DNA of 64,000 nt. It comes from Sphingomonadales bacterium. Lineage in GTDB: Bacteria; Pseudomonadota; Alphaproteobacteria; Sphingomonadales; Sphingomonadaceae. A program made the translations under genes and the position numbers. Positions 3,544 through 47,603 of this stretch are shown here, in pieces. The stretch covers positions 1-64,000 of the forward strand of contig SBGG01000059.1 in assembly GCA_006226685.1 (NCBI GenBank). The letters run 5' to 3'. Below the pieces are notes generated by a model that did no database searches, had not been told where the DNA came from, and worked only from the letters and a program-made list of their open reading frames with translations. The first letter of the stretch is position 1. Each line of letters opens with the position of its first letter.

Positions 3544-4929
3544 TCAGTCCTTTTTCATTTTCTGCCCATTGTGAACATGTCGTCGCACAGCGATATGGAA
3601 TAGCAGGAATGTCGTGGCCGATGAGGCCGCGATCGACCATGCCGCGCCTATGGCGCCCAGCGGCGGCAATAGCAGGGCCAGCAGGGCAAGCTGCACCACT
3701 GCGCCGATCAGGCGCAAGCGAAGCACGCTGCCGCCACTCGTCGCGGCAAGCAGGGCCGGTTCATAATTGATGCCGATAAAGTCTATGGAGGCGGCAAGGC
3801 CCAGCACCAGCAGGATCGGATAGGCTCCCGAAAATTCGCTGCCCGCGATCAGCCATAATATCGGTTTTCCAAGCGCCGCTATGACCAACAGCAGTGCAAT
3901 ACCGGCGACAAGCGCGATCCGGTCGGTCTTGCGCAATAATTTGCGCAGGGCCTCATGTCCGTCTGATGCAAGCACATGATTAAGCTCCGCATAGGTGGAG
4001 CGGGAGATCAGCGTCGAAACTTTGGCCAGAGCCCGGGAAAGCTGGAAGGCGAGCCGGAACAGGCCCGCCGCCGCCGGACCGGTAAAGCCGCCGAGCAACA
4101 GCACCGGTGCCTGATTGGTCAGGCCGCCGATCGATGTGCCGAGATTGGTGACCCCCAGAAAGGGCAACAATCCCTTTTCCTCGCGCAGAGTCCTGCGAAT
4201 GGCCAGGCTATATTTCCATGCCAGCGCCGATCTGTCTGTCCGCCAGGCGAGCCACCAGAAGGTGAGGGCAGAGGCCAGTTCGGAAGCCGCCCATGCGATG
4301 AGGAAGCCGGTTACGTCCGGTTTGAACAACAGGGCGGTGACCGTTCCCACCATCCGGGTCAGCGGCACCATGGTTTCGGCATAGGTGGAGAGGTCGAAGC
4401 GATGATGCAGACGCAGCACGCCCATGGGGGTCGAGCGCACGGCACCCAATATGGCGAGGCAATAAAGCAGGGCGTCGCGCGCGGTTTCCCGTTCCCATTG
4501 GCCGAAATGGACCAGCAATGCGGTCGCACTGAGTGCTATGCTGGCGCCAATGGCGAAGCCGATGATGTCGAACAGGCGACAGGCGGCGACGAGCCGACCC
4601 AGTGCATCCTGACGTCCTTCATGGAGATGAGCAGCACCAAAGCGCATCACCACCCGCCAGCAGTCGAACTGGGCGAACAATGCAATTGCGCCGCCCATGC
4701 TGAGGATTAGGGCAAAGCGACCGAAGTCGACGACGCCGAGCGTCCGGGTGGCCACACCAAGATAGACAAGGCTCAATATCGCTGCGACGCCTTTACCGGA
4801 CATCAGCCATAGAAGATTGCGGACGATGCGGGCCAGCGGCTTGTCGGACCCGAGCCATTCGCGCGCGGAACGCCGCGCCGGACCGGAGGCGGAAGGTTGA
4901 GAAGAGGGGAGAGGCCTGGGGTCGGGCAT
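3544..4929 (-). CDS. Oligosaccharide flippase / Wzx-like polysaccharide export protein
   Basis: 461 aa, 12+ TM; LLWLMSGKGVAAILSLVYLGVATRTLGVVDFGRFALILS typical of the Wzx/MOP superfamily. Confidence 0.85.
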   Translation of the reverse strand: MPDPRPLPSSQPSASGPARRSAREWLGSDKPLARIVRNLLWLMSGKGVAAILSLVYLGVATRTLGVVDFGRFALILSMGGAIALFAQFDCWRVVMRFGAAHLHEGRQDALGRLVAACRLFDIIGFAIGASIALSATALLVHFGQWERETARDALLYCLAILGAVRSTPMGVLRLHHRFDLSTYAETMVPLTRMVGTVTALLFKPDVTGFLIAWAASELASALTFWWLAWRTDRSALAWKYSLAIRRTLREEKGLLPFLGVTNLGTSIGGLTNQAPVLLLGGFTGPAAAGLFRLAFQLSRALAKVSTLISRSTYAELNHVLASDGHEALRKLLRKTDRIALVAGIALLLVIAALGKPILWLIAGSEFSGAYPILLVLGLAASIDFIGINYEPALLAATSGGSVLRLRLIGAVVQLALLALLLPPLGAIGAAWSIAASSATTFLLFHIAVRRHVHNGQKMKKD

Positions 4930-5075
4930 GGCGTTTTACGGAAACTGGGGCGATGCGGCCCTTATCCACAACTTTCCTGATTGAGCGTCAATCGCTGCCC
5001 CTTCCCGTGCCCGAAAAGCGTTGTTCATGCAAAACTTGTTTTGCCCGGGGGCATAGTTGGCATTATGGCGCGCTG

Positions 5076-5843
5076 ATGACCGAAAGCTTCACGACGCCTG
5101 TCAACAGGGCCATCATCCTGAGCGCGGGGCAGGGATCGCGCCTGCTTCCTTTGACCGCCGAAATGCCCAAATGTATGATCGATTGTTCGGGCCGGACACT
5201 GATAGAATGGCAGATTCTGATGCTTGCCGCCTGCGGTGTGACCGATATTCATGTCGTCACCGGCTTCATGACCGAGGTGGTCGAGGCGGAATTGCGGCGG
5301 CTGGAGCGGCCGGGCCTGACCCTTACCGCTCATTTCAACCCCTTTTATAAGGTTGCGGACAATCTCGGCAGTTGCTGGATCGTGCGTGAGGTGATGGAAG
5401 GCGACTTCCTCATTCTGAACGGCGATACGCTGGTATCGCGCCCGATCGTGGAGCGGGTGCAGCAGGGCGGGGCCTATCCGATTTGCGTTACCGTTGATGT
5501 GAAGGATGGCTATGACAGCGACGATATGAAGGTCGAACGGGCCGATGGTGGCAAAAGCGAGCGGCTTGTTCATATCGGAAAAACATTGTCGGCGGCGCAG
5601 AGCAATGCCGAATCCATCGGCTTTCTGGCTTTTCGCGGGGAAGGCGGCCAGTTGTTCCGCGACACGGTCGAGGCGGTGATGCGGACCAGCGCAGGGGTGG
5701 AAAACTGGTATCTGAAGGTGATTGACCAGATCGCAGCGACCGGCAGGGTCGGCACCGTCTCTATCGAGGGGATGGAGTGGGGCGAGGTGGATTTCCTCAA
5801 CGATGTCGAGGTCGCGGAGCGATTGACCGCCGGTTGGGAATAA
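5076..5843 (+). CDS. Nucleotidyltransferase of the LicC/phosphocholine or inositol-phosphate cytidylyltransferase type
   Basis: ILSAGQGSRLLPLTAEMPKCMIDCSGRTLIEWQ (GxGxR...PK motif); ATG at 5076 within ORF 4953..5843. Confidence 0.82.
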   Translation: MTESFTTPVNRAIILSAGQGSRLLPLTAEMPKCMIDCSGRTLIEWQILMLAACGVTDIHVVTGFMTEVVEAELRRLERPGLTLTAHFNPFYKVADNLGSCWIVREVMEGDFLILNGDTLVSRPIVERVQQGGAYPICVTVDVKDGYDSDDMKVERADGGKSERLVHIGKTLSAAQSNAESIGFLAFRGEGGQLFRDTVEAVMRTSAGVENWYLKVIDQIAATGRVGTVSIEGMEWGEVDFLNDVEVAERLTAGWE

Positions 5844-5886
5844 TGCTTTCGAAAAAACACGGGCGAAAAACTCGGGGAAGGGGCGC

Positions 5887-6324
5887 TCAGGGCGTTGTCG
5901 CCCAGATATCCTTCAGCCAGTCGCGTAGCGTTTCGATCTGTCCCTGTCCCAGCGGGGTTGCCGCTTTGAGATCGGGCGGCCCCGGCCAGTCGGCATCGTC
6001 CAGTTCAAGTCCGGCTTCCTGACGTGTCCCTTCATAGCGCGGGAACACATGAAAATGGACATGAGGGTCCACCATCATCAGCATCAGCCAGTTGATCCGC
6101 TGATAATCGACGGCCTTACGCAACATCGATTCGACCCGTGCGGTAATGATCGCGAGATCGGCATGGGCCTGCGCCGGCAGATCGCCAAAGGCGGTCGCAT
6201 CCGATTTCGCCGCGACCACCAGCGATCCCAATGTCACCTGCGTCGGGCGTAGCAGTACGACCCAGTGATCGCTCTCGCCGATCAGCGTATCGGGCCAACC
6301 GAATTTCGTGATGGTTTCGTTCAT
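5887..6324 (-). CDS. HIT family protein
   Basis: DPHVHFHVFPRYEG histidine-triad motif; start MNETITKFGW at 6324. Confidence 0.88.
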   Translation of the reverse strand: MNETITKFGWPDTLIGESDHWVVLLRPTQVTLGSLVVAAKSDATAFGDLPAQAHADLAIITARVESMLRKAVDYQRINWLMLMMVDPHVHFHVFPRYEGTRQEAGLELDDADWPGPPDLKAATPLGQGQIETLRDWLKDIWATTP

Positions 6325-7376
6325 GCCTTCTGCTCCAGCCAGCTCCGGATTTCCTCGCCACGGCGCCGGGCGTTCAGCATCTGGACCACCTGTACCCCAT
6401 GGACGACGAGCGACAGCACCGTCCACCATGCCAGTGCGATCAGGCCGATATCCGGGCGTCCCGCGATCAGACTGGCAACGAGGATTACCATGTTCGGGTT
6501 CCGCCGCGCGGTGATGAGGCGGAACCAGCTATCGAACGGCCGCCACACATGCATGTCCATCCGCACGGTTTTGAGGAAAATGCCCTCGAACAGGCGTTGC
6601 ACCACATAGCCGATCAGGATTGCCGCCATGATCGCGGCAAAGGTCGCGTTCGAAAGGCCAAGGCCGACCTTGCCGAGCCCGACGCCCCAGGCATACCACC
6701 AGAAGGGCGGATGGACGAGGTCGATCCCGTGATCGAATATATTGCCCCATTTGCTTGATGTAACGGTGCAGCGGGCCAGTTTGCCGTCCACCGTATCGAG
6801 CACCATGAAGACAAAACCGCAGGCGATGCCCGCCCAGAACTGCCCCTGATAAAAGAGGATTGTGGCGACCACGCACAGCGTCGCGCCGATGCCTGTGACC
6901 ATATTCGGCGTCATTTTGAGCGAAGCGGCGAGGCGGGTCAGGTGAAAGGCAAGTTCCGGCCACAGATATTTGGTGAGGAGATCGGTCACGCCCTTATAAG
7001 CGCCGAAATAGCTGGCGCGTTCGATCTGGTAACGGGTCTGCGGCGTCAGGCGCATCGCGAAAGGGGTTTCGCTCTTGCGGAGTTGCTCATTGTAGAAGCT
7101 GGGCGAGGTCGAGAGGTCCACCGTGCGTTCCGGCGCATCCTTCCACTGGCCGATCACCGGGTCCGAGCCATGGACGAAGGCTGTGCCCGGCATCCGCAGC
7201 GCAAGGCGCATCAGCAGTGGGTCGAACGCATAGTCGAGATTGACGTGCAATGTGCACCCGTCGGCGACCGGTGTTTTCGCGCTTTCCTGCTGGAAAAGGC
7301 GGCGAACCCGCTCGGCGGAGGTCATGCCCCAGATGAGGCCGTCGGCATCGCCCGAAAATGATACAGGATCTTGCAT
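6321..7376 (-). CDS. CDP-alcohol phosphatidyltransferase/phosphotransferase family protein
   Basis: Complete motif DTVDGKLARCTVTSSKWGNIFDHGIDL (DxxDGxxARx8GxxxDxxxD); extra ~140 aa N-terminal region. Confidence 0.9.
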   Translation of the reverse strand: MQDPVSFSGDADGLIWGMTSAERVRRLFQQESAKTPVADGCTLHVNLDYAFDPLLMRLALRMPGTAFVHGSDPVIGQWKDAPERTVDLSTSPSFYNEQLRKSETPFAMRLTPQTRYQIERASYFGAYKGVTDLLTKYLWPELAFHLTRLAASLKMTPNMVTGIGATLCVVATILFYQGQFWAGIACGFVFMVLDTVDGKLARCTVTSSKWGNIFDHGIDLVHPPFWWYAWGVGLGKVGLGLSNATFAAIMAAILIGYVVQRLFEGIFLKTVRMDMHVWRPFDSWFRLITARRNPNMVILVASLIAGRPDIGLIALAWWTVLSLVVHGVQVVQMLNARRRGEEIRSWLEQKA

Positions 7377-7438
7377 TCGACTGTCAGGTCTTCCGTGAAA
7401 TTTTGCTTGCGCGCGGCTTATAACCCTATATCGCCGGA

Positions 7439-8572
7439 GTGCGACCAGATTTTCTAATGAGAAAGTTGCTACGCTATATGAAGCAGCGGGACCTGCGTTA
7501 TTATTGGCATGCCGATCGGTGTGATCCTCGAATAGCCAGTGTCAGATTACGTTTGTTGCATCCCGTCGCTTTTTTGCAGTCTGCGGGTGTTTCGGTCGAT
7601 ACCAGCGATGTTGTATTCGATCCGTCGCGACATGACGTGGTTTTGTTTTGCAAATCGGTGAGTGAGGGGGCGCTGGAGATCGCTCTGCGGGCGAAAGCGG
7701 CGGGAAAGTTCGTCGTTTATGACATATGTGACAATGTCTTTGCGGGTAAGGATAATAAGAAGACTGCTCGCAGGTCGGCGGCGGTACGCAAGATGCTGGC
7801 TCTGGCCGATCATGTGACCTTTACGACCGAGGTGCTGCGGCAACAGATATTGGAACAGGTGCCGTACGATATCGGGAAGACTTCGGTGATCGCCGATTGT
7901 CTGGATTGTTTTGAGCAGGGCGGCAGCAGTCGTTCGGTTCAAAGCCTTCGTGCTTATCATCGAACGGCGAATTTTCTGCGCAGAAACGAGGGAGCTCTCC
8001 ATTGTATCTGGTTCGGGAAGAGCCAGGGGAAGAAATCGGGTCTGGCGCACTTGCAGGCGGCCGTTCGCTATCTCGAGGGTTTTTCGAAAAGATTTCCGGT
8101 TACGCTGACTATCCTCAGCAACCGTCCTTTTCGATATTGGCTTTATTCCCGTTCCTGGAAAATACCCCATCATTACGAGGCCTGGGATCTGAATAATTTC
8201 GGCGACATTCTGGCGATGCATGATGTCACGGTCATCCCTCTGGAACAGAATGAATATACGCTCGGCAAAACCATAAACAGGCCGGCAACCGCCATCATGG
8301 CGGGGCTGGGTGTTATTGCCGATTCTATCCCCGCTTATGAGGAATTACGGCCTTATATTCCTCTTGATGACTGGTCTGCCCAGTTAGAGCGTTATTGGAA
8401 TTGTGCTCCGTCCGGGGATCCGCAACTGGCGCAGGCTCGCCTCTATCTCGAGAGTCGATATGGCAAGGAGCAGCTGGGGCGCCAGTGGCTTGAACTTTTA
8501 TCGATGCCTTCGTCCATGGCGGCGGGCGGCCGTGCTGCTGAGGAAGTTCAGCCGCGCGATCTGCCGCTATAA
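7439..8572 (+). CDS. Putative glycosyltransferase (GT4-like fold)
   Basis: FVVYDICDNVFAG...HDVTVIPLEQNEYTLGKTINRPATAIMAGLGVIADSIPAYEEL pattern; GTG at 7439 or ATG at 7457. Confidence 0.65.
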   Translation: MRPDFLMRKLLRYMKQRDLRYYWHADRCDPRIASVRLRLLHPVAFLQSAGVSVDTSDVVFDPSRHDVVLFCKSVSEGALEIALRAKAAGKFVVYDICDNVFAGKDNKKTARRSAAVRKMLALADHVTFTTEVLRQQILEQVPYDIGKTSVIADCLDCFEQGGSSRSVQSLRAYHRTANFLRRNEGALHCIWFGKSQGKKSGLAHLQAAVRYLEGFSKRFPVTLTILSNRPFRYWLYSRSWKIPHHYEAWDLNNFGDILAMHDVTVIPLEQNEYTLGKTINRPATAIMAGLGVIADSIPAYEELRPYIPLDDWSAQLERYWNCAPSGDPQLAQARLYLESRYGKEQLGRQWLELLSMPSSMAAGGRAAEEVQPRDLPL

Positions 8573-8575
8573 TAT

Positions 8576-9655
8576 TTATCGGATGTCGTTTCGTTCTGCG
8601 AAATCAAGAATGATCCGTGCCTGACGCAGTGAGGCGGAGTCCGAACTGCGGTCGATGGAGCGGGCGACGGCGGCCTCCTGCGCGGCAATGAAATGCGGTT
8701 GTTCTTGCCGGGCCCGATCCAGTGCGGCGGGCAGGTCGGAAAGATCGTTCAAGACCTGCCCGAGTTTCCAGTGCGAAAAGCTCGGATCATCGGCATAGTC
8801 GATATGGTCAAGGTTCAGGAACAGGCAGGGGCGCGGGCGCAGCAGAAATTCGTAGACCTGACTGCTGATGTCGCCCAGATAAATATCCGCGCTGTTGGTG
8901 TAGGACATGTCGATGGAATGGCGGCTGCCCATATCGACGCGGATATGGGGGCTGTCGCTGCGGATCGGCGCGATATTTTTGGCGATCTTGGTGTGTGGCG
9001 CAATGATGACATTATAACCGCGCAGGTCTTCGAGAGCTTTGAGCACTTCCGGTCCGTGGGTGTACCAGGAGGATAGTTTCCGGTCGAAATGCGGGTTGTA
9101 GAGGATGACCGGCTTGTCATCGGCGAAGAAATGCTGCGGTTCCGCCATCAGCTCGAACTTGGGGTAGCCGCCGACAACGCAGTTCGCTTCGGTCGTAAGA
9201 CCGCGTTCGATCAGGCGTTGCCGATCTTTTTCACCGCACACCAAAGTCAGATCGAAGGCTGCGTGGCGTTTCTTATATCCACCCTCACGATCGCCCGCGC
9301 CATGCTTGATATGAATCATGCGGGATGAAAATCCGGGCATCCGGTAGAGCCAGGCGCTCGATGTCTCGGTGGTGACGAGCAGAGGGAAGCGTCGGATGGT
9401 GGGGTAGTTGAGGATCAGCGTTGCGAGGCGCGAGGGGAAATGAAACAGCGAGTCCGGGCGTAGCGACGGCCGCCGCAGCCGGATCAGATGCAGCTTATGG
9501 TCCGGGTCGTAGCTGGCGACCAGATCGAGCAGCTTTGAGGAAGGGGACAATATGCTGACCTGTGCGCCGAAATCATAAGCCAGGCGCAGGGCGGCGGGTA
9601 GCCAATGATAGAGTTGCTGGGCCTCTGCCAGGGCGAGGAAGGCGATGGGCGGCAC
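8576..9655 (-). CDS. CDP-glycerol glycerophosphotransferase-like polymer transferase
   Basis: HIKHGAGDREGGYKKR..., SADIYLGDISSQVYEFLLRPRPCLFLNLDH resembles TagB/TagF-type C-terminal motif. Confidence 0.75.
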   Translation of the reverse strand: MPPIAFLALAEAQQLYHWLPAALRLAYDFGAQVSILSPSSKLLDLVASYDPDHKLHLIRLRRPSLRPDSLFHFPSRLATLILNYPTIRRFPLLVTTETSSAWLYRMPGFSSRMIHIKHGAGDREGGYKKRHAAFDLTLVCGEKDRQRLIERGLTTEANCVVGGYPKFELMAEPQHFFADDKPVILYNPHFDRKLSSWYTHGPEVLKALEDLRGYNVIIAPHTKIAKNIAPIRSDSPHIRVDMGSRHSIDMSYTNSADIYLGDISSQVYEFLLRPRPCLFLNLDHIDYADDPSFSHWKLGQVLNDLSDLPAALDRARQEQPHFIAAQEAAVARSIDRSSDSASLRQARIILDFAERNDIR

Positions 9656-13714: not shown

Positions 13715-14599
13715 ATGTCCATTCTCGTCAACAAGAATACCAAGGTCATCACCCAGGGGATGACCGGTGCCACCGGCACTTTCCATACCGAGCAGGCGCT
13801 TGCCTATGGCACCCAGATGGTTGCGGGCGTTACGCCGGGCAAAGGGGGAACGACGCATATCGGTCTGCCCAATTTCGACACGGTGGCTGAGGCCAAGGCC
13901 GCGACCGGTGCCGATGCCTCCGTTATCTATGTTCCGCCGCCATTTGCCGCGGATTCGATCCTCGAAGCGATCGACGCGGAGATTCCGCTGATCGTCTGCA
14001 TCACCGAGGGCATTCCGGTGCTCGACATGGTGAAGGTGAAGCGCGCCCTTTCCGGCAGCAAGTCGCGCCTGATCGGGCCGAACTGCCCGGGCGTGCTGAC
14101 GCCGGGCGAATGCAAGATCGGCATCATGCCGGGCAACATCTTTAAAAAGGGCAGCGTCGGCGTGGTCTCCCGCTCCGGCACACTGACCTATGAAGCGGTG
14201 TTCCAGACCTCCAATGCGGGCCTTGGTCAGACCACAGCCGTCGGCATTGGCGGCGATCCGGTCAACGGCACCAACTTCATCGACGTGCTGGAAATGTTCC
14301 TCGCCGACGATGCGACCGAGAGCATCATCATGATTGGTGAAATCGGTGGTAATGCCGAGGAGCAGGCTGCGCAGTTCCTGATCGACGAGGCGAAGAAGGG
14401 CCGCAAGAAGCCTATGGCTGGCTTCATTGCAGGTCGTACCGCGCCTCCGGGGCGCCGTATGGGCCATGCTGGTGCGATCGTTTCCGGTGGTCAGGGCGGC
14501 GCAGAGGACAAGATTGCGGCAATGGAAGCAGCCGGTATCAAGGTTGCCTCCAGCCCGTCCGAGCTGGGTACGACCCTTCTGGAAGTTCTCAAGGGCTGA
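13715..14599 (+). CDS. sucD: Succinyl-CoA ligase (ADP-forming) subunit alpha
   Basis: [45 protein letters not shown]...[13 protein letters not shown]. Confidence 0.98.
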
Positions 14600-14690
14600 T
14601 GTTTCGGTGCTTTCCCGGTGCTGGTGACATCCGGCATCGGGAAGGCTTCCGTTCCCCGGCTGGAAGCGGGGCAATAGGGCGAAGGACAAG

Positions 14691-17513
14691 ATGATGGGCT
14701 ATGAAGGCCAGGATTTCGAAGCGCTTGGAGAAGCCGAGCAAGGGCCGAGCTGGGCGCGTCCCAACTGGCCGCTGAGCACGACCGACGATCTGACCGCCGC
14801 GCTCGATCCGACCCAGATGCAGGTTGCCGTGAAGGCCGCGGCCAAGGCGTCGGGCAAACCCCTTTCGGAAAATGAACTGGCCGGTGCCGCCGCCGACAGT
14901 ATCCGGGCGATGATGCTGATCCGCACCTATCGCGTGCGCGGTCATCTGGCGGCCAATCTTGATCCTCTGGGCCTGACGAAGCGGGATCTGCCTGCCGATC
15001 TTACGCCCGAATATCACGGCTTTACTGGCGCCGATCTGGACAAGAAGGTTTATATTGGCGGTGCGCTGGGTCTCGAATGGGCCACGGTGCGCGAGATTGT
15101 CGATATTCTCCGTGCCAATTATTGCGGCAATGTCGGCTTCGAATATATGCATATCGCCGATGTGGAGGAGCGCCGCTTCATTCAGGATCGTATCGAGGGC
15201 GGTGACAAGTCGATCGACTTCACGCCCAACGGCAAGAAGGCGATCCTGTCCAAGGTGATCCACGCCGAGCAATATGAAAAATTCCTCGGCAAGAAATATG
15301 TCGGGACCAAGCGCTTTGGCCTCGACGGCGGGGAGTCGATGATCCCGGCGCTCGAAGCCGTTATCAAATATGGCGGTCAGCTGGGCGTGCGCGAAATCGT
15401 TTACGGCATGGCGCATCGCGGCCGTTTGAACGTGCTCGCCAATGTGCTGGCCAAGGGCTTCCGCGTTATCTTCCACGAATTTTCCGGCGGCACCGCGAAC
15501 CCCGAAGATGTCGGCGGGTCGGGTGACGTCAAATATCACCTCGGAACCAGCACCGACCGCGAGTTTGACGGTATCAAGGTGCATATGAGCCTGGTACCGA
15601 ACCCGTCGCACCTTGAAACGGTCGATCCGGTGGTGCTGGGCAAAGTGCGCGCGCAGCAGGTGTTCCACGATGACATCGGCCCGGGTAAGCATATGCAGGC
15701 TTTGCCGGTGCTGATCCATGGCGACGCGGCTTTCGCAGGGCAGGGGATCGTCTGGGAATGCTTCGGCTTTTCGGGCGTGCGCGGTTATAATACCGGTGGC
15801 TGCATCCACTTCGTCGTCAACAACCAGATCGGTTTCACGACCAGCCCGCAATTTTCGCGCGGTTCGCCCTATCCGTCCGATGTGGCGAAGGGCGTGCAGG
15901 CGCCGATCCTGCATGTGAATGGCGATGACCCCGAGGCCGTGACCTTCGCTTGCAAGCTCGCGATCGATTATCGCCAGACCTTCCATCGCGACATCGTGAT
16001 CGACATGTGGTGCTATCGCCGCTTCGGCCATAATGAAGGCGATGAGCCGGGCTTCACTCAGCCGTTGATGTACAAGGAAATCCGCAAGCATCCGCCGGTC
16101 AGCGAAATCTATGCGACCAAGCTGAAGGGCGAGGGCGTGATTGATGACGCTTTTGCCGCCGGGGTGACGCAGGAGTTTACTGACCATCTCGAGCAGGAAT
16201 TCGAAGCGGCAAAGACCTACAAGTCCAACCACGCGGACTGGTTCGCCGGTCGCTGGTCGGGTCTGCATCAGCCCGCCGATATCGAAACCGCGCGCAAGAA
16301 TGTCGAGACGGCGATCGAGAAAAAGCTGTTCGACAGCCTCGGCCGCACGCTCACGACCGTTCCTGAAGGTCATAATATTCACAAGACCTTGCGCCGCGTT
16401 CTTGATGCCAAGGCGGAGATGTTCAAATCCGGTGAGGGTTTCGACTGGGCAACCGGTGAAGCGCTGGCTTTCGGCGCCTTGTTGTCGGAAGGCTATGGCG
16501 TGCGCCTGTCTGGACAGGACAGCGGTCGCGGTACCTTCAGCCACCGTCACGCCGTCTGGGTTGATCAGGATACGGAAGCGAAATATGTCCCGCTTTCGAC
16601 AGTGCCGCACGGCAATTTCGAGGTCTATGACAGCCCGCTTTCCGAATATGGCGTGCTGGGCTTCGAATATGGCTATGCAATGGCCGATCCGAAGAGCCTC
16701 GTGATCTGGGAAGCGCAGTTCGGCGATTTCGCCAATGGCGCGCAGATCATGATCGACCAATATGTGGCCGCTTCCGAAGCCAAGTGGCTGCGCGCCAACG
16801 GCATCGTTATGCTGTTGCCGCATGGTTATGAAGGGCAGGGACCGGAGCATAGCTCGGCGCGTCTCGAACGCTATCTGCAATTGTGCGCCGAGGGGAATAT
16901 CCAGGTCGCCAACTGCACCACCCCGGCCAATTATTTCCATATATTGCGCCGCCAGATGCTGCGGCCGTTCCGCAAGCCGCTCATCATCATGGCGCCTAAA
17001 TCGCTGCTGCGGCATAAGGCGGCGGTGAGCAAGGCCGAGGATTTCATGGGCGCGCAACACTTCATGCGCATCCTGTCCGATCCCCATGCTGCGGCCGATA
17101 CGGAAACGCGGCGTCTGGTACTGTGCAGCGGAAAGATTGCCTATGACCTGTTCGATGCGCGTGACGCGGCGGGAGACAAGGACATACAGATCGTCCGTGT
17201 TGAACAGCTTTATCCGTTCCCGACCGAGGCGCTTGCCGTCCGCCTGAAACGGATGACCAATCTGGAAGAGGTCGTCTGGTGTCAGGAAGAGCCCCGCAAC
17301 AATGGCGGCTGGTTCTTTGTCGAGCCCTATATCGAGGACGCGCTGAAGCAGGCCGGAAGGGCGCCGATGCGGGCTCGTTATGCGGGTCGCAAGGCAGCGG
17401 CTTCGCCCGCGACCGGACTTGCCAAGCGTCATGTCGCCGAACAGGGCGCGCTTATCGCCGATGCGCTGGGTCACAGCGTCCGTACCGAAATCAAACGTCA
17501 GCAGAAAGGCTGA
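14691..17513 (+). CDS. sucA: 2-oxoglutarate dehydrogenase E1 component
   Basis: 940 aa; MAHRGRLNVLANVLAKGFRVIFHEF, SGQDSGRGTFSHRHAVWVDQ. Confidence 0.98.
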   Translation: MMGYEGQDFEALGEAEQGPSWARPNWPLSTTDDLTAALDPTQMQVAVKAAAKASGKPLSENELAGAAADSIRAMMLIRTYRVRGHLAANLDPLGLTKRDLPADLTPEYHGFTGADLDKKVYIGGALGLEWATVREIVDILRANYCGNVGFEYMHIADVEERRFIQDRIEGGDKSIDFTPNGKKAILSKVIHAEQYEKFLGKKYVGTKRFGLDGGESMIPALEAVIKYGGQLGVREIVYGMAHRGRLNVLANVLAKGFRVIFHEFSGGTANPEDVGGSGDVKYHLGTSTDREFDGIKVHMSLVPNPSHLETVDPVVLGKVRAQQVFHDDIGPGKHMQALPVLIHGDAAFAGQGIVWECFGFSGVRGYNTGGCIHFVVNNQIGFTTSPQFSRGSPYPSDVAKGVQAPILHVNGDDPEAVTFACKLAIDYRQTFHRDIVIDMWCYRRFGHNEGDEPGFTQPLMYKEIRKHPPVSEIYATKLKGEGVIDDAFAAGVTQEFTDHLEQEFEAAKTYKSNHADWFAGRWSGLHQPADIETARKNVETAIEKKLFDSLGRTLTTVPEGHNIHKTLRRVLDAKAEMFKSGEGFDWATGEALAFGALLSEGYGVRLSGQDSGRGTFSHRHAVWVDQDTEAKYVPLSTVPHGNFEVYDSPLSEYGVLGFEYGYAMADPKSLVIWEAQFGDFANGAQIMIDQYVAASEAKWLRANGIVMLLPHGYEGQGPEHSSARLERYLQLCAEGNIQVANCTTPANYFHILRRQMLRPFRKPLIIMAPKSLLRHKAAVSKAEDFMGAQHFMRILSDPHAAADTETRRLVLCSGKIAYDLFDARDAAGDKDIQIVRVEQLYPFPTEALAVRLKRMTNLEEVVWCQEEPRNNGGWFFVEPYIEDALKQAGRAPMRARYAGRKAAASPATGLAKRHVAEQGALIADALGHSVRTEIKRQQKG

Positions 17514-17519
17514 TCCATC

Positions 17520-18746
17520 ATGGCCACTGAAGTCAAAGTGCCCACTCTGGGCGAGTCCGTTACCGAAGCGACCGTCGGCGCATGGTTGAAGAAGCCGGGC
17601 GAGGCCGTCGCGGTTGACGAACCCATTTGCAGCCTCGAAACCGACAAGGTCGCGGTCGATGTTCCGTCGCCCGTTGCCGGTGTGATGAGCCAGCATCTCG
17701 TCGCCGAGGGCGATACGGTAAATGTCGGCGCTGTGATCGCGATTGTCGAGGAAGGCGCAGCTGCCGCCAAGGCTGCTCCGGCCGCCGCTGCCCCGGCAGT
17801 TTCCGCCCCCGCAGCGCCGGCACCCGCTGCCGCTCCGGTTGAGGAAAGCGGTTCGGTCACTCTGTCTCCCGCAGTACGCCGTCTGGTGCTTGAGCATGGG
17901 CTCGATCCCAGCCGCATCAAGGGCACCGGCAAGGATGGCCGCCTGACCAAGGATGATGTGATGGCTGCCGTTGCCGCCGGAACGGCGAAGGCGGAAGGGG
18001 CTGCTGTAGCGGCTGCTCCGGTCGCTGCGGTCGCTTCCGGTCCGTCGCGCGCTCAGGAAAGGGTGAAGATGACCCGCCTGCGCCAGACGGTCGCCAAGCG
18101 CTTGAAAAGCGCGCAGGAAACCGCCGCTTTGCTCACCACCTTCAACGATGTGGATATGAGCGCGGTGATTGAGGCGCGTGCCAAATATAAGGATCTGTTC
18201 GAGAAGAAGCACGGCGTTCGCCTCGGCTTCATGGGCTTTTTCACCAAGGCGGTGTGCATGGCCCTCAAGGATGTTCCGGCGGTCAATGGCCAGATCGAAG
18301 GCGATGAGATCGTTTATAACGATTTTGCCGATATCTCGGTCGCGGTCAGCGCGCCCAACGGTCTGGTCGTGCCGGTGATCCGCAATGCCGAGAGCATGAG
18401 CGTCGCCCAGATCGAAAAGACCATCGGCGATTTCGGCAAGCGCGCCAAGGAAGGCGCATTGACGATGGAAGATATGAAGGGCGGTACCTTCACCATTTCA
18501 AACGGCGGCGTTTTCGGTTCGCTGATGTCGACCCCGATCATCAATCCGCCGCAGTCGGCTGTGCTCGGCCTGCACCGGATCGAAGAACGCCCGGTCGTCG
18601 TCAACGGGCAGATTGTTGCACGCCCGATGATGTATCTGGCGCTGTCCTATGACCATCGCCTGATCGACGGCCGTGAGGCGGTTACCTTCCTCGTCGCGGT
18701 CAAGAATGCGATCGAGGATCCGACCCGCCTGCTGATCGACCTTTAA
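17520..18746 (+). CDS. sucB: Dihydrolipoyllysine-residue succinyltransferase (E2)
   Basis: Lipoyl domain [12 protein letters not shown], Ala/Pro linkers, catalytic [16 protein letters not shown]. Confidence 0.97.
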
Positions 18747-41151: not shown

Positions 41152-44100
41152 CTAAATACCCATCATCAGACTTGCGCGCAGGGTGAACGCGGCCCGGCCT
41201 TGTTGTTCTTCGGCACCGGCTTCTCCTGCGATCCTGAAACCGTTGCGACCGCCAATGGCGCGCAACTTGCCGGTCCATCCACTGGTGCGGTCATCGGGAA
41301 CCAGCGTGAAATCCTGCCCGCCGCTGAAATGGGCGGTAGTAACGCCGAGCGATCCACCCACAAGCTGACGTCGGCCGCCTTCGGCTTCGAGGCGGAACCA
41401 GCCGCTGTCGGGATCATGGCTGCCCCATTCGAGAGCGGTCGCGACCGATGCCGATACCGCCAGTTCGTCGCTGGTGCGGCTGGCGACGGTCAGGTTGAAA
41501 GCGTCGCCGCCGCCTTTCTCGCCATAGCCGTCCTCGCGCAGCCGGAAATAATCGAAGCCGACCGACGGGCGCACCCGCAATAATCCCCAGCTGGTTTCGT
41601 AGGAAGCACCGGCCGCCGCCGAAGTCAGGGTTCCGTTCCATTTGCCCTCGGCCGTTCGTTTCACCACTTCATTGCCGATGGCGCCGGAAAAAATGCGCTT
41701 GCCCTTGAAGTTGACGGTTGCCAGCGATCCGCGTGCATAGGCATTGAAGGGGCCCCAGCTGCCGCGCCAGTAGAGTGCGGCTTCATATTGGTCCGAATCC
41801 ACCTGATTATCGGTTCCGCCATCGGAGTTGCCGCCATGCAGATAGGCGATGGACAGGCCGAAATGGCCGATACCGGTCTTATATTCGCCGCCGGTGCCGA
41901 TGCCCCACCCGGTGATATCATAGGATGCCGTGTCGCCGATGCTCTTTGCCCGTCCGAAGCCCACCTGCTGAATCCAATATCCCCATTTGCCCTGATCGGC
42001 GAAGGGCGCATTGGGGTCGGCAATCATGCCGGTCATCGCGCGGGAACCGAGGCTGGTGGCTTCGAATGCTCCGCCTGCATGGTCGGGTAGCATCTCGCGC
42101 ACCTGCCTGCGGAAGCTGTCGCCGTCGATCGTGCTCAGATAGGCGGCCGCGACTTTTTCATCCTTTGCCAGAGCGGCATAAATGGCGTCATAGGCCGATG
42201 CCTGAGACCGGTTGAGCCCCAGTTCGGTAGCATTTTTGCGGGTGATGTCGATCGCGAGCCGGGTGGGAGACATGGTCGCCACCGCACCCTTGAACATATA
42301 GGGCAGCAAGGCGCCGTCGGTGACGAGCTTCGCTGCCCCGGTAATGGAATCGGCTTCCAGAAAACTGTATCTTCCCTCTGCGCCGGTAATGCCGTTGAGC
42401 CTGATCGCCACTTTGGCGCCTTCCGCAAAGGTCGCGGCGCCGCTGACGTTCAGGACCGTGCTATCCTTGTGCGCGGTGTCCAGCGTGACGCCCAGAACGC
42501 CCTGTTCCGCGACATTGAGCGTGCGCAGCGATGCCGTGCCGTTGAGGTTCAGGCGTCCGCCATTGATTGTCAGCGCAACCCCGCCGCCATTGGCAATGGC
42601 TCCCGTGAAAACGGCGTTCCCGGAAAGCGTCAGGCTGTCGGCGCCACCGCCGAAATCGGCGTTGCCCGTAAAGCTGCTGGTTCCGCTCAATTCCATGCTG
42701 TCATCGCCCGAGCCGAACGCGGCATTACCGGTATAGGTGGCATCCCCTGACAGTTTCAGTGCATTGTTGCCTGCCCCGAATGTGGCGTTGCCGGTGACGG
42801 TGCCGTCGGCGATATCGAAAAGGTCGTTGCCGGATCCGAACTTTATCGCGCCGCTGATCGAGGGGGCAGCCGCGCCGCTGGTCACCGCCGTCTGCCTGAT
42901 GGTCGCGCCACTGCTGTTGGCGGAGAGATTTATCGCCGTTTCGCCCGATATGGCGCCGGCATTTTCGATCGTCGTCAGCGTGCCGGACAGGTCCGTGATC
43001 GCGCTCGAACTGCTGCCGGTGCCGTTGCCCGCAGCCTTGATCGCTCCGCTGTTGCGGATGGCGGTGGTGGTCGCTCCAGCCGCGATCAGAATGGCGGTCG
43101 CGTTCTTACCGGACGCTTCGACAATGCCGCCGACCCGGACTTCCGGCACGGTGCTTCCGCTACCGATCCGGATTGCCGTGGCGGTAGCGCCGTTCGACAC
43201 CGCCGACACCCTGCCGTTGACCGTGAGGCCGCCGGCAATGTCCACCTGACCGCCCATGCCACCGATCTGCAGGCCATTGCCGTCGACGCCGGCATAGACG
43301 CCGCTGCCCGTGACGATGCCGTCGATAATCAGGCCATGGCCAAATGCGGTTCCGGCGACCGCACCGATCGCGATGTCATGGTCCGCCGCACCGATCCGTA
43401 CCGCCGCTGCGGATCCCAGCGATGTGATCGCGGCCGATCCTTCCTTGCTGTCTTCGATCCCGTCCTTGTCTTCATCATTATCGGTCGTGCTGCTGTCCTT
43501 GGGCGGTATGGCGAAGATAATGCCACCGCCGACATTGCCCGCGATGTTGATGGCCGGGCCGCCCTGCAACAGATCGTCGGCATCGAGCTTGCTGGTGTCC
43601 GACGGCGGGGTCGTATAGCGATATCCTGTCGCACCGATGCTTCCCTGAAACTCCAGTGCGCCGCTTACATTGCCGTTGATGGCGACGGCGCTGGCGTCCT
43701 TGCCTGCCGCCGTAACGGTACCTGCGATCCGTGCGCTGCCATTGATGTCGCCCGTCGCGATACCGATGGAGCGGTCGCCGGTAATGGCGACCTTTCCGTC
43801 GCTGACCAGTCGGCCCGTCAGGGGGCCACCCAGTCTGATGCCATAGGAATCATTCCCTTCGACCGTGATTTCGCCATTATTGGCGACAGCGCCAGTATAG
43901 CTTCCGAGGGTCCGGATGCCCGCCCGGCCGGTTCCGGTGGCAAAGGGGCCGTCCAGGTCGCCATCCTTGTCGGTATCGACCGGACTATAGGTTTCATCGA
44001 TGATGATTTTGCCCGCGCTCGCGTTGGTGACGCCCCCACTGGCACCACTGGCGGCTTCAATTCCCGCGGCGCCATCCACATTGGTTTTCTGGATGGTCGT

Positions 44101-44184
44101 GCTGTTGCTTTGCGCCTGGGCATTACCCGCCGCGATCATCGCGGCCATTGCCGCCAGACAGGTCGAACTCTTCCAATTCGGCAT
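41152..44184 (-). CDS. Autotransporter (type V secretion) with beta-solenoid passenger and C-terminal barrel
   Basis: Signal peptide MPNWKSSTCLAAMAAMIAAGNAQAQ, ~21-aa solenoid repeats, C-terminal autotransporter beta-domain (KWGYWIQQVGFGRAKSIGD...). Confidence 0.92.
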   Translation of the reverse strand: MPNWKSSTCLAAMAAMIAAGNAQAQSNSTTIQKTNVDGAAGIEAASGASGGVTNASAGKIIIDETYSPVDTDKDGDLDGPFATGTGRAGIRTLGSYTGAVANNGEITVEGNDSYGIRLGGPLTGRLVSDGKVAITGDRSIGIATGDINGSARIAGTVTAAGKDASAVAINGNVSGALEFQGSIGATGYRYTTPPSDTSKLDADDLLQGGPAINIAGNVGGGIIFAIPPKDSSTTDNDEDKDGIEDSKEGSAAITSLGSAAAVRIGAADHDIAIGAVAGTAFGHGLIIDGIVTGSGVYAGVDGNGLQIGGMGGQVDIAGGLTVNGRVSAVSNGATATAIRIGSGSTVPEVRVGGIVEASGKNATAILIAAGATTTAIRNSGAIKAAGNGTGSSSSAITDLSGTLTTIENAGAISGETAINLSANSSGATIRQTAVTSGAAAPSISGAIKFGSGNDLFDIADGTVTGNATFGAGNNALKLSGDATYTGNAAFGSGDDSMELSGTSSFTGNADFGGGADSLTLSGNAVFTGAIANGGGVALTINGGRLNLNGTASLRTLNVAEQGVLGVTLDTAHKDSTVLNVSGAATFAEGAKVAIRLNGITGAEGRYSFLEADSITGAAKLVTDGALLPYMFKGAVATMSPTRLAIDITRKNATELGLNRSQASAYDAIYAALAKDEKVAAAYLSTIDGDSFRRQVREMLPDHAGGAFEATSLGSRAMTGMIADPNAPFADQGKWGYWIQQVGFGRAKSIGDTASYDITGWGIGTGGEYKTGIGHFGLSIAYLHGGNSDGGTDNQVDSDQYEAALYWRGSWGPFNAYARGSLATVNFKGKRIFSGAIGNEVVKRTAEGKWNGTLTSAAAGASYETSWGLLRVRPSVGFDYFRLREDGYGEKGGGDAFNLTVASRTSDELAVSASVATALEWGSHDPDSGWFRLEAEGGRRQLVGGSLGVTTAHFSGGQDFTLVPDDRTSGWTGKLRAIGGRNGFRIAGEAGAEEQQGRAAFTLRASLMMGI

Positions 44185-44307
44185 TCCATATCCTTCCCTG
44201 CGAACGGAGGGCGGGTCGTGCGACACCCATTCCCTTCCTTCGTCAGTCAGGACGGTGTCCTCATCCCCCAACCTTGGCTGGGATGGAAATTTTTTGCCGG
44301 AGGGGTA

Positions 44308-46674
44308 TCAGAAGGCGGTATCGATACCGACGCGGATGGTGCGCGGGCGCAACGGCGTGACCTGATGGCCGAATGTTGCGCCCAGGGGGGTGCCCAGCGC
44401 GAAGCGGTTGCCCACCTCGTCATCGAGATTGGTGAGGCTCAGCGTGATACCGAAAGCGGGGGTGCCGATCCGTGCGGTGAATCCGCTGTCCAGATAATCG
44501 CCCTGTTGTTCGCCCAGCACCGGCCCGATCCCCAACCGGGATTTGCCGACATAGCGGAGCCAGCCGTTCAGATGCAGTTCCGCCTTATCGTTCAGTACCG
44601 GGGCGTGATAATCGAAACCCGTGCGCCAGCTTATGTTCGCGACATTGGGAACCTGCGCGACATCCTGAAATGCAAAAGCTCGCAACAGCGCCTCAGACGG
44701 TTGCGTCACCTTGCTGTCGTTCATCGCCGCGGATGCTTCGATCGACAGGCGCTCCGATGCTTGCCATCGTCCTGTGCCGCTGACCGACCATATTCGCCCG
44801 TCGCCGATATTTTCAGTGCTCGGAAGGCCGGCGCTGTCGATGAAATCGGCCTGAATATCCTGCCACTGGCTATGAGCGATGGAGAGCGACAGGGCCACCC
44901 CGCCACCATTTGAGGGAAGGTGCCTGATCCCCGCTTCCAGCGTTCGTACCCGGTCGTTGCGGAAGCGGCGGACGAACGGCCCCTCAATCGCAAGGCCGCC
45001 GGGCCGGAACCCCTGTTGATAGCGGGCATAGAGCGTTGTGCCCGAAAGCGGTTCGGCCGATACCGCAAACGACGGCAGCAGCCGTTCCTCGGTACGCTTT
45101 GCCGTGATCGTCCGTCCGGCCATTATGAAGGCGGGCGAGACATCTTCTCCTCCACCGTTCAATATGGTGCGGGAATAGCGCAACCCGCTGGTCAGGGCCA
45201 GCGCGGGTATCGGTTCCACGGTGGTCTCGCCATAAACTGTCGCTTCGCTGACCTTATTGGTAACGCCCGTGACTGGAAGCGGCATGTCGGGGGCGCCGAA
45301 CGCCCGACCCAATGTCGTGGTATTGTGGACATAGCTCGCGCCCGCGACCCAGCTCAGGCCGTTCTCTGCCGCATATGACAGCCGGTTCTCGGTGGTGAAG
45401 AAACGCGTGTCGTTGTTCTGGCGGAAGATTTGTGGCGGGCCATCGGGTATCGTGGCGTCATAGCGTTCGTCCAGCTTTTGCCGGACATAAGCGGTCGACG
45501 AATGCAGTTCTATGGTGTTCCATCGTTTTTCGACGAGCAGGCTTGCCATGCGATAGCGTGCGTCGAACCCGCCGCCGATGGTGCCCGAACGGGTCAGCGG
45601 CGGCAGGGCAGGGTCCGCATATTGGTTGTCGGCGCCATGATTATTCTGAAGGATGCCGCCGATATCGATGGTCCACCCATTTCCGCCATCGACCCTTATT
45701 GTGGCACGGCCGCCTTCGACATGCGTGCGGTTGATGTCGTTCCGGTCGCGACCGATATCGTCAATATATCCACCCTCGGTAACGGCATATGCGGTGAGCC
45801 TGAGGCCAATGCGTTCCCGCATAAGCGGCAGGTTGATGGTTCCGCCGATGTCGGCGCCGGGGGTGCCATGCTGCGTCGCCGACAGACCGCCTGAAAGCTC
45901 GGCCCCGGTCCGCTCCAGATCGGGAGTTTTGGGGACGATCCGGATGATGCCACCCAGCGAGCCCGCGCCGTAAAGCGTACCCTGCGGCCCTTCCAATATC
46001 TCCACCGAACCGATGTCGTACAGCCGCAGGTCGGGATCGGGGGCGTTGTAGCTGAGCCGCAGATCGCCGAAATATTGCCCGACGGTCGATTGGGTCGGGC
46101 CGGTGAAGCTGGAATCGGCAATCCCGCGAATGAATAATTTATTGCGCCCGGAACCCAGATGGGTGGATGACAGGCTGGCGATCCGCGCGATGAGACCGTC
46201 GGTTCCCTGCGCGCCGCCAAAGGTGAGGTCGGTGCCGTCGATCAGGTTCACCGTCCCGGGAAAACGGGTGAGCATCGTGTCTCTTTTGCTGGCCGTCACG
46301 ATGATCGGCGCCGGAGCGGGTGGGGGGCTGGCCACTGCCGGCGATGCGGGGCGGGGCGGCGCTGCTGCTCGACGCGGGGAGGATTGCATCTGCCGGATGC
46401 TCCACCCGTTCGAACCTAACCGCACCGCTTTCGCGCCGCTGCCTTTCAGAAGCCGGTCAAGTGCTTCCCGCGCGCTCATCTGGCCGCGAAGAGAGCCGAC
46501 CGGCCGGTTCCAGAGAGTGTCGCTTTCGATGCGTACGCTCAGGCTCGTCTGTGCCGCCAGCGCCGCCACCGCATCGCCCAGCGTTCCGGCCGGAAGGTCG
46601 AGCGGTTGCCGATCCCGCGCCACTGCGGGCGTTGCAACCATGGCCGCACATAACAAGATCGGGAAGGTACGCAT
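44308..46674 (-). CDS. TonB-dependent receptor with N-terminal STN (secretin/TonB short) signalling domain
   Basis: N-terminal LPAGTLGDAVAALAAQTSLSVRIESD (STN), plug IIVTASKRDTMLTRFPGTVNLIDG, C-terminal barrel. Confidence 0.93.
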   Translation of the reverse strand: MRTFPILLCAAMVATPAVARDRQPLDLPAGTLGDAVAALAAQTSLSVRIESDTLWNRPVGSLRGQMSAREALDRLLKGSGAKAVRLGSNGWSIRQMQSSPRRAAAPPRPASPAVASPPPAPAPIIVTASKRDTMLTRFPGTVNLIDGTDLTFGGAQGTDGLIARIASLSSTHLGSGRNKLFIRGIADSSFTGPTQSTVGQYFGDLRLSYNAPDPDLRLYDIGSVEILEGPQGTLYGAGSLGGIIRIVPKTPDLERTGAELSGGLSATQHGTPGADIGGTINLPLMRERIGLRLTAYAVTEGGYIDDIGRDRNDINRTHVEGGRATIRVDGGNGWTIDIGGILQNNHGADNQYADPALPPLTRSGTIGGGFDARYRMASLLVEKRWNTIELHSSTAYVRQKLDERYDATIPDGPPQIFRQNNDTRFFTTENRLSYAAENGLSWVAGASYVHNTTTLGRAFGAPDMPLPVTGVTNKVSEATVYGETTVEPIPALALTSGLRYSRTILNGGGEDVSPAFIMAGRTITAKRTEERLLPSFAVSAEPLSGTTLYARYQQGFRPGGLAIEGPFVRRFRNDRVRTLEAGIRHLPSNGGGVALSLSIAHSQWQDIQADFIDSAGLPSTENIGDGRIWSVSGTGRWQASERLSIEASAAMNDSKVTQPSEALLRAFAFQDVAQVPNVANISWRTGFDYHAPVLNDKAELHLNGWLRYVGKSRLGIGPVLGEQQGDYLDSGFTARIGTPAFGITLSLTNLDDEVGNRFALGTPLGATFGHQVTPLRPRTIRVGIDTAF

Positions 46675-47603
46675 CAGCGAGGGGTCAGTATCCAGCCCAT
46701 TGCGTCCTGCCGCATATTGACATTCAATATGGGAGCGAGCGTTTCGATCTTTTCCTTCGGCGGCAAGCTGAGCACGCCTCTGAAGCCTTGTCCCGCTATG
46801 GCGGGCGTGACGGCGATATTTATGCCATAATAGCGGCTGAGATCCGCGGCCACCCGTTCGAGCGATTGCCCGTCATAAACCAGCCGTCCCTGCCGCCATC
46901 CCGCGACCGTGCTACCCGGAATGTCGTCGAGCATATAGGTGCCCGTTTTGTCGTCGGCATGGAGCCTGTGTCCGGCGTCGATCCGAACGGCCTCCCGTCC
47001 GGGGTTGTAGAGGACGGCGCCCTCGCTGACTGCTATATCGATCTGCCCGTTGTCGCGCAGCACGTTGAATGCCGTACCGATATCGACCAGCCTTGTTTCC
47101 CCGGCCTGAACTTCGAAGGGATGGTCGGGGTCATGGCTGATGGTGAACATCGCCTCGCCGCGTTCCAGCGAAGCGGTGCGCGGATTGGCGTGATCCAGCA
47201 TGACCCTTGTTCCGCCGTTCAGGGCAATATTGCTGCCGTCGGCCAGCGTCACTGTCCGTCGCACGCCCGGCGCGGTTTCGACCGCCCAGGGATCGCTACG
47301 CGGCACGTAAAGATACAGGGAAACCGCCGCGACGATCGAAGCGGCGAGCGCGCCGCCGATCCATGCCCGCCGGTTCAGGCGGGCAGGTTCCGGCATGGCT
47401 GTCATTTCCTGCACGGTAGGGAGGGACGTCAACAGGTCATCCAGCCCCTTATCGGCCGCCGCCATGGCATGATAGGCGTCGGCATGGGCCGGGTCGGCCT
47501 CCAGCCACAGGACGAAGGCACCCCAGTCGTCAAAGCCGGGGTCGCGCTGACGAATGATCCAATCAAGTGCGGTTTGTTCTGTCATGGCCGGTTCCTGTGC
47601 CAT
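46674..47603 (-). CDS. FecR-family anti-sigma regulator
   Basis: N-terminal ALDWIIRQRDPGFDDWGAFVLWLEADPAHADAYHAMA; FecR domain VETAPGVRRTVTLADGSNIALNGGTRV. Confidence 0.94.
   Translation of the reverse strand: MAQEPAMTEQTALDWIIRQRDPGFDDWGAFVLWLEADPAHADAYHAMAAADKGLDDLLTSLPTVQEMTAMPEPARLNRRAWIGGALAASIVAAVSLYLYVPRSDPWAVETAPGVRRTVTLADGSNIALNGGTRVMLDHANPRTASLERGEAMFTISHDPDHPFEVQAGETRLVDIGTAFNVLRDNGQIDIAVSEGAVLYNPGREAVRIDAGHRLHADDKTGTYMLDDIPGSTVAGWRQGRLVYDGQSLERVAADLSRYYGINIAVTPAIAGQGFRGVLSLPPKEKIETLAPILNVNMRQDAMGWILTPR

Follow-up and report, generated by a model that had tools for sequence, protein, structure and literature searches.

A sphingomonad gene cluster that probably encodes the phosphoglycerate head-group arm of a bacterial phosphosphingolipid (CPG/CPG2) pathway

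The window analyzed here, a 64,000-nucleotide stretch of a draft Sphingobium-like genome (G000, contig C77), carries six neighboring genes that raise the question of which pathway they serve. A preliminary description had read them as a teichoic-acid-like or wholly novel pathway, in which a small phospho-alcohol is activated with CTP, transferred as a head group and exported. All six open reading frames were found in place by ORF listing and a Pfam family search, which also confirmed the proposed families, the glycosyltransferase match falling below its cut-off and the TagF-type match being weak, albeit above it. After correction, the nucleotidyltransferase and HIT genes start at ATG 5076 and ATG 6324, respectively. 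The features are as follows:

3544..4929, minus strand: Wzx/MOP-type flippase (PF01943, Polysacc_synt, E 1.1e-11), a candidate for export of the completed lipid or glycan
5076..5843, plus strand: putative CpgD-type CTP:phosphoglycerate cytidylyltransferase (255 aa from ATG 5076; NTP_transferase, E 1.5e-12)
5887..6324, minus strand: HIT-family protein (PF01230, E 9.5e-6; HVHFHV triad at 6049-6063)
6321..7376, minus strand: putative CpgA-type CDP-alcohol phosphotransferase (PF01066, CDP-OH_P_transf, E 4.5e-10; catalytic motif at 6720-6797)
6321..6324, minus strand: 4-nt ATGA overlap of the cpgA stop and the HIT start, from the start and stop positions
7439..8572, plus strand: divergent GT-B type glycosyltransferase (Pfam match below cut-off; GC3 0.57)
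8576..9655, minus strand: TagB/TagF-like CDP-alcohol:acceptor phosphotransferase, GT-B fold (PF04464, Glyphos_transf, E 3.6e-6, 26.6 bits against a cut-off of 22.1)

The nucleotidyltransferase proved to be 45-54% identical to proteins of other alphaproteobacterial families, several of which are encoded inside ceramide/CPG2 clusters. In the stretch designated L083, the nucleotidyltransferase returned the window protein as its reciprocal best hit. That single stretch encodes an acyl-ACP synthetase, CerR, serine palmitoyltransferase (SPT), a CpgC-like protein, ceramide kinase, a CDP-alcohol transferase, a metallophosphoesterase, the nucleotidyltransferase, a CofC-like protein, a fatty-acid hydroxylase, LptF/G and a HIT protein, and where CerS would be expected it has a GNAT protein; clusters in L079, L076/L097 and L082/L101 contain the same components. 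Clusters bearing nucleotidyltransferase relatives match CC_1152-CC_1165 of Caulobacter in gene content and order, CC_1159 being CpgA, and their gene names (CpgC, CerS and so on) were assigned by domain content and order. Compact ceramide/CPG2-like clusters were also seen in two alphaproteobacterial MAGs (L039 and L041), together with CpgA and a more distant (37-38%) nucleotidyltransferase.

CpgD of Caulobacter (CC_1152) is a CTP:phosphoglycerate cytidylyltransferase that makes CDP-glycerate (PMC12275187). The residues reported to bind CTP/CDP-glycerate in that enzyme (G12, R16, K26, N90, T93, N110, G111, D112, M147, K161, S170 and W201) are matched in the 255-aa window protein by G18, R22, K32, N96, S99, N115, G116, D117, M151, K169, S180 and W211, with Ser replacing T93; these equivalents were placed by motifs and spacing rather than by alignment to the CpgD sequence itself. 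The equivalents of N90, M147 and S170 are altered in the outlying homologue L042, and that of N90 is altered in L029. The latter protein (L029:12220-12897, Sphingobium sp. CECT 9361) is a 34%-identical nucleotidyltransferase in the cpgD place with Ser at the N90 equivalent, and its sequence makes it a candidate for a changed substrate; the HIT gene was not found at the L029 locus. In the nucleotidyltransferase tree the window protein grouped firmly with its other Sphingobium relatives, and the deep forks were not firmly resolved.

The preliminary description had also credited the CDP-alcohol phosphotransferase with a full DxxDGxxAR...GxxxDxxxD motif, which was indeed complete and was invariant in 17 homologues. 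The protein is 38% identical to its counterpart in the L083 CPG2 cluster and carries an N-terminal soluble domain ahead of the membrane domain. It is one of three CDP-alcohol transferases in its own genome, the others being PgsA, which scored over its cut-off, and a PssA-like protein, which scored below. The nucleotidyltransferase (5076-5843, plus strand) and the CDP-alcohol phosphotransferase (6321-7376, minus strand) most plausibly represent CpgD and CpgA orthologues and not teichoic-acid enzymes, the orthology being to clusters of Caulobacter-like make-up and not to Caulobacter sequences directly.

Occurrence across genomes pointed the same way. The nucleotidyltransferase was present at ≥45% identity in 9 of 142 genomes of the class, each of which also had SPT; SPT itself was present at ≥47% in 17 of the 142. 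The 9/9 overlap corresponds to a hypergeometric probability of 5e-10, for thresholds that were chosen after the hits had been seen and for genomes that are related, though nearly all of different genera. The partner genes were likewise found in the genome that contains the window. Its SPT exceeded the equivalog cut-off (790.8 vs 670) and lies on contig C95 with ceramide kinase, CpgC, CerS, LptF/G and a desaturase-type protein, and a CofC-like protein, the counterpart of CC_1153, is encoded at G000:C22:3309-4076 (44% identical to the L038 homologue, E 1e-59). CofC-like genes lie within the cpgD/cpgA cluster in other sphingomonads. The cpgD and cpgA genes of the window lie apart from the ceramide genes of their own genome. 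The window and the examined stretches of C95 and C22 showed no CC_1158-like metallophosphoesterase; CC_1158 is reported to be non-essential and to be absent from S. wittichii.

Homology, gene linkage, co-occurrence and the presence of partner genes were thus all observed for the CPG2 reading, and we consider it probable (roughly 0.75) that the locus encodes the phosphoglycerate head-group branch of a bacterial phosphosphingolipid (CPG/CPG2) pathway. Weighing against it are the distance of the window genes from the ceramide genes, the two genomes of the genus with no CpgA-type match, the Sphingosinicella loci that have cpgA-HIT but no nearby cpgD, and the limited resolution of the deep nucleotidyltransferase forks. 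From the sequences we infer the following substrates and products. The CpgD-type enzyme would convert CTP and phosphoglycerate to CDP-glycerate, from which the CpgA-type membrane enzyme would transfer phosphoglycerate onto ceramide-phosphoglycerate, the precursors of the latter coming from enzymes whose genes lie on another contig, namely serine palmitoyltransferase, ceramide synthase, ceramide kinase and CpgC. The chemistry of the preliminary description, in which CTP activation of a small phospho-alcohol precedes transfer by the CDP-alcohol phosphotransferase and export, therefore stands in outline as a prediction from orthologues in ceramide/CPG2 clusters, while its teichoic-acid-like or wholly novel identity does not, since orthologues of the nucleotidyltransferase, the phosphotransferase and HIT lie in those clusters. 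Its statement that no characterized sphingomonad pathway holds such a set overlooked CPG2, for which PMC11324152 lists Sphingomonas wittichii orthologues.

Other products were weighed against this reading. Were inositol-1-phosphate the activated alcohol, the CDP-alcohol enzyme would make di-inositol phosphate or a lipid bearing inositol, a route found in Archaeoglobus and proposed for some Bacteroidetes. Both proteins match the IPCT/DIPPS fusion weakly (NCBIfam), a similar gene pair has been proposed for CDP-inositol in Bacteroidetes, and the transferase model (pLDDT 86) matches the folds of AF2299 and AfIPCT-DIPPS, AF2299 (4o6m/4o6n) being the best PDB match over the whole length (TM 0.58-0.70). 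The IPCT resemblance does not discriminate, however, because the best structural match of CpgD itself is IPCT (PMC12275187). Moreover, no myo-inositol-phosphate synthase (MIPS, PF07994) was found in the draft genome, which is 97.8% complete, although the expected control genomes were positive, and the relatives sit in ceramide/CPG2 clusters instead. We rejected the inositol pathway as the main reading on the absence of MIPS, and regard it as very improbable. A teichoic-acid-like phospho-alditol polymer, which the TagB/F-like protein would build from CDP-glycerol or CDP-ribitol and Wzx would export, strikes us as barely credible. It draws on the Wzx neighbor, on the above-threshold TagF-family match and on the model of the TagB/F-like protein (pLDDT 89, GT-B fold), for which TagF (3l7i) was among the best matches at TM ~0.66. 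The other best matches were further GT-B enzymes, a fold widespread in glycosyltransferases and epimerases; the core genes belong to ceramide clusters; and glycerol-1-phosphate gave no product with CpgD (PMC12275187). We rejected this polymer because TagD, the glycerol-3-phosphate cytidylyltransferase family (TIGR01518), had no match in the window's own genome.

Closer to the CPG2 reading is a redirected use of CDP-glycerate, whereby CpgD together with CpgA or the TagB/F-like protein would place phosphoglycerate on a glycosphingolipid, capsule or other glycan instead of making CPG2. The separation of the window genes from the ceramide genes would suit such a module, as would the coupling to a TagB/F-like transferase and a Wzx flippase and the variable glycosyltransferases or ATP-grasp protein found at the same spot in related loci. 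The genome nevertheless also encodes CpgC, ceramide kinase and the CofC-like protein, which one would expect for CPG2 itself, and we judge redirection to be unlikely.

Conservation of the gene neighborhood, which the preliminary description had put forward as a check, was found for most of the six genes in Sphingobium and its relatives, arguing that the cluster is not a product of chance. The CDP-alcohol transferase was present in 23 of 25 genomes of the genus, own genome counted, the CpgA-type match being absent from the other 2. Across 19 same-genus stretches of ~18 kb each, the CDP-alcohol transferase gene was adjoined by HIT in all 19 and had the nucleotidyltransferase nearby in 15 and a TagB/F-like gene nearby in 16; in 15 of the 19 the latter lay upstream of cpgA, overlapping it or at most 20 nt away. 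The proposed linkage of the flippase also held, with a Wzx-type gene close to the cytidylyltransferase in 15/19. In a survey of 33 loci (the window, L026-L038 and L109-L127), cpgA and HIT overlapped by exactly 4 nt in 30. Most of the cpgA-HIT loci compared share an sdhB-sucA flank. Within the window, a 1207-aa open reading frame runs antisense to sucA (14589-18212, minus strand) and most likely reflects a spurious reading frame in GC-rich DNA; further along, three genes at 41152-47603 resemble, by sequence, a TonB-receptor/FecR-type uptake system. In four Sphingosinicella loci (L034, L035, L036 and L037) cpgA-HIT was kept and cpgD was not found nearby; in L034 an ATP-grasp protein (PF14397) precedes cpgA. 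As far as the accessible published accounts show, two arrangements are new, namely the near-universal cpgA-HIT overlap and, in Sphingobium, a TagB/F-like gene coupled to cpgA, although sphingomonad gene neighborhoods may already stand in supplementary tables of the 2024 paper (PMC11324152).

The glycosyltransferase (7439-8572) departs from this pattern. It lies between the TagB-like and cpgA genes on the strand opposite to both, its GC3 of 0.57 is below the 0.64-0.78 of the other cluster genes, and a related gene turned up in just one further neighborhood (L123, 45%); it is therefore probably an insertion. In L123 (G011) it likewise lies between the TagB-like and cpgA genes, and a second TagB-like gene (35%) is present there.

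Roles for the remaining proteins are conjecture. The HIT protein, whose HVHFHV (HxHxH) triad is intact and whose gene recurs in the ceramide clusters of L076, L079 and L083, might cleave or recycle a cytidylylated intermediate. Gene order in L079 suggests that CC_1157 is probably the HIT gene of Caulobacter; our literature search for the identity of CC_1157 found none. The published Caulobacter work calls CC_1157 probably unrelated to the pathway and reports its mutants to be without high cofitness, which, if CC_1157 is HIT, argues against an essential HIT role. The Wzx-type protein might flip the product. A 28%-identical homologue lies beside cpgD-cofC-cerS in L082; the Caulobacter flippase CC_1166, sought among the cluster neighbors, was not found beside the acyl-ACP synthetase, where each protein checked either had no assignment or was identified as a pyridine-nucleotide oxidoreductase, a mechanosensitive channel or an ELM1-like protein. 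Because most Sphingobium loci couple cpgA to the TagB/F-like gene, an additional step of the TagF type is possible. The HG and APH histidines of the TagB/F-like protein are invariant in 7 homologues. This protein might use the same CDP-glycerate to place phosphoglycerate onto a further lipid or glycan acceptor, the absence of TagD making CDP-glycerate a likelier substrate than CDP-glycerol. Only tentatively do we extend this to a larger CPG2 system in Sphingobium, in which the TagB/TagF-like enzyme would add or polymerize phosphoglycerate from CDP-glycerate, not CDP-glycerol, on a sphingolipid or surface glycan, the adjacent Wzx would export it, and HIT would be a hydrolase or transferase devoted to the CDP intermediate.

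Sphingomonads are known for sphingolipids that replace LPS. In Caulobacter, CPG2 supports survival without LPS (PMC12275187). Putative CpgD and CpgA in a conserved sphingomonad cluster offer a way to ask whether sphingomonads bear the same anionic phosphosphingolipids, and HIT, the cpgA-coupled TagB/F-like transferase and the Wzx-type flippase are possible partners for further head-group transfer and export.

Among known systems, IPCT-DIPPS/AF2299 shares the transferase fold, including the N-terminal soluble domain, but at an identity of only 14-17%, and no inositol-phosphate synthase was found in the present genome. Wall teichoic acid synthesis by TagD/TagF shares a TagB/F-like protein and, by analogy, a CDP-activated three-carbon unit; the setting here is instead Gram-negative and sphingolipid-based, TagD was not found, and the cytidylyltransferase is of a different fold (PMC13228409). 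S. wittichii, also of the Sphingomonadales, has the same predicted gene set scattered over its genome, so that the CPG2 core was already known in sphingomonads when its orthologues were listed in 2024 (PMC11324152, Fig 7); the portions of that account at our disposal mention neither a TagB/F-like gene nor a HIT overlap. The closest known system is CPG/CPG2 of Caulobacter crescentus (CpgA-D, CC_1152-CC_1161; PMC12275187, PMC11324152, PMC13228409), with which the Sphingobium-like genome shares a CpgD-type protein with the reported pocket residues, a CpgA-type protein, a CofC-like protein, ceramide kinase, CpgC and the ceramide genes, HIT also being present in clusters with the Caulobacter gene order. 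In contrast to Caulobacter, the genes are here scattered over at least 3 contigs, cpgA is coupled to HIT, most relatives also have a TagB/F-like gene coupled to it, and a Wzx-type flippase adjoins cpgD.
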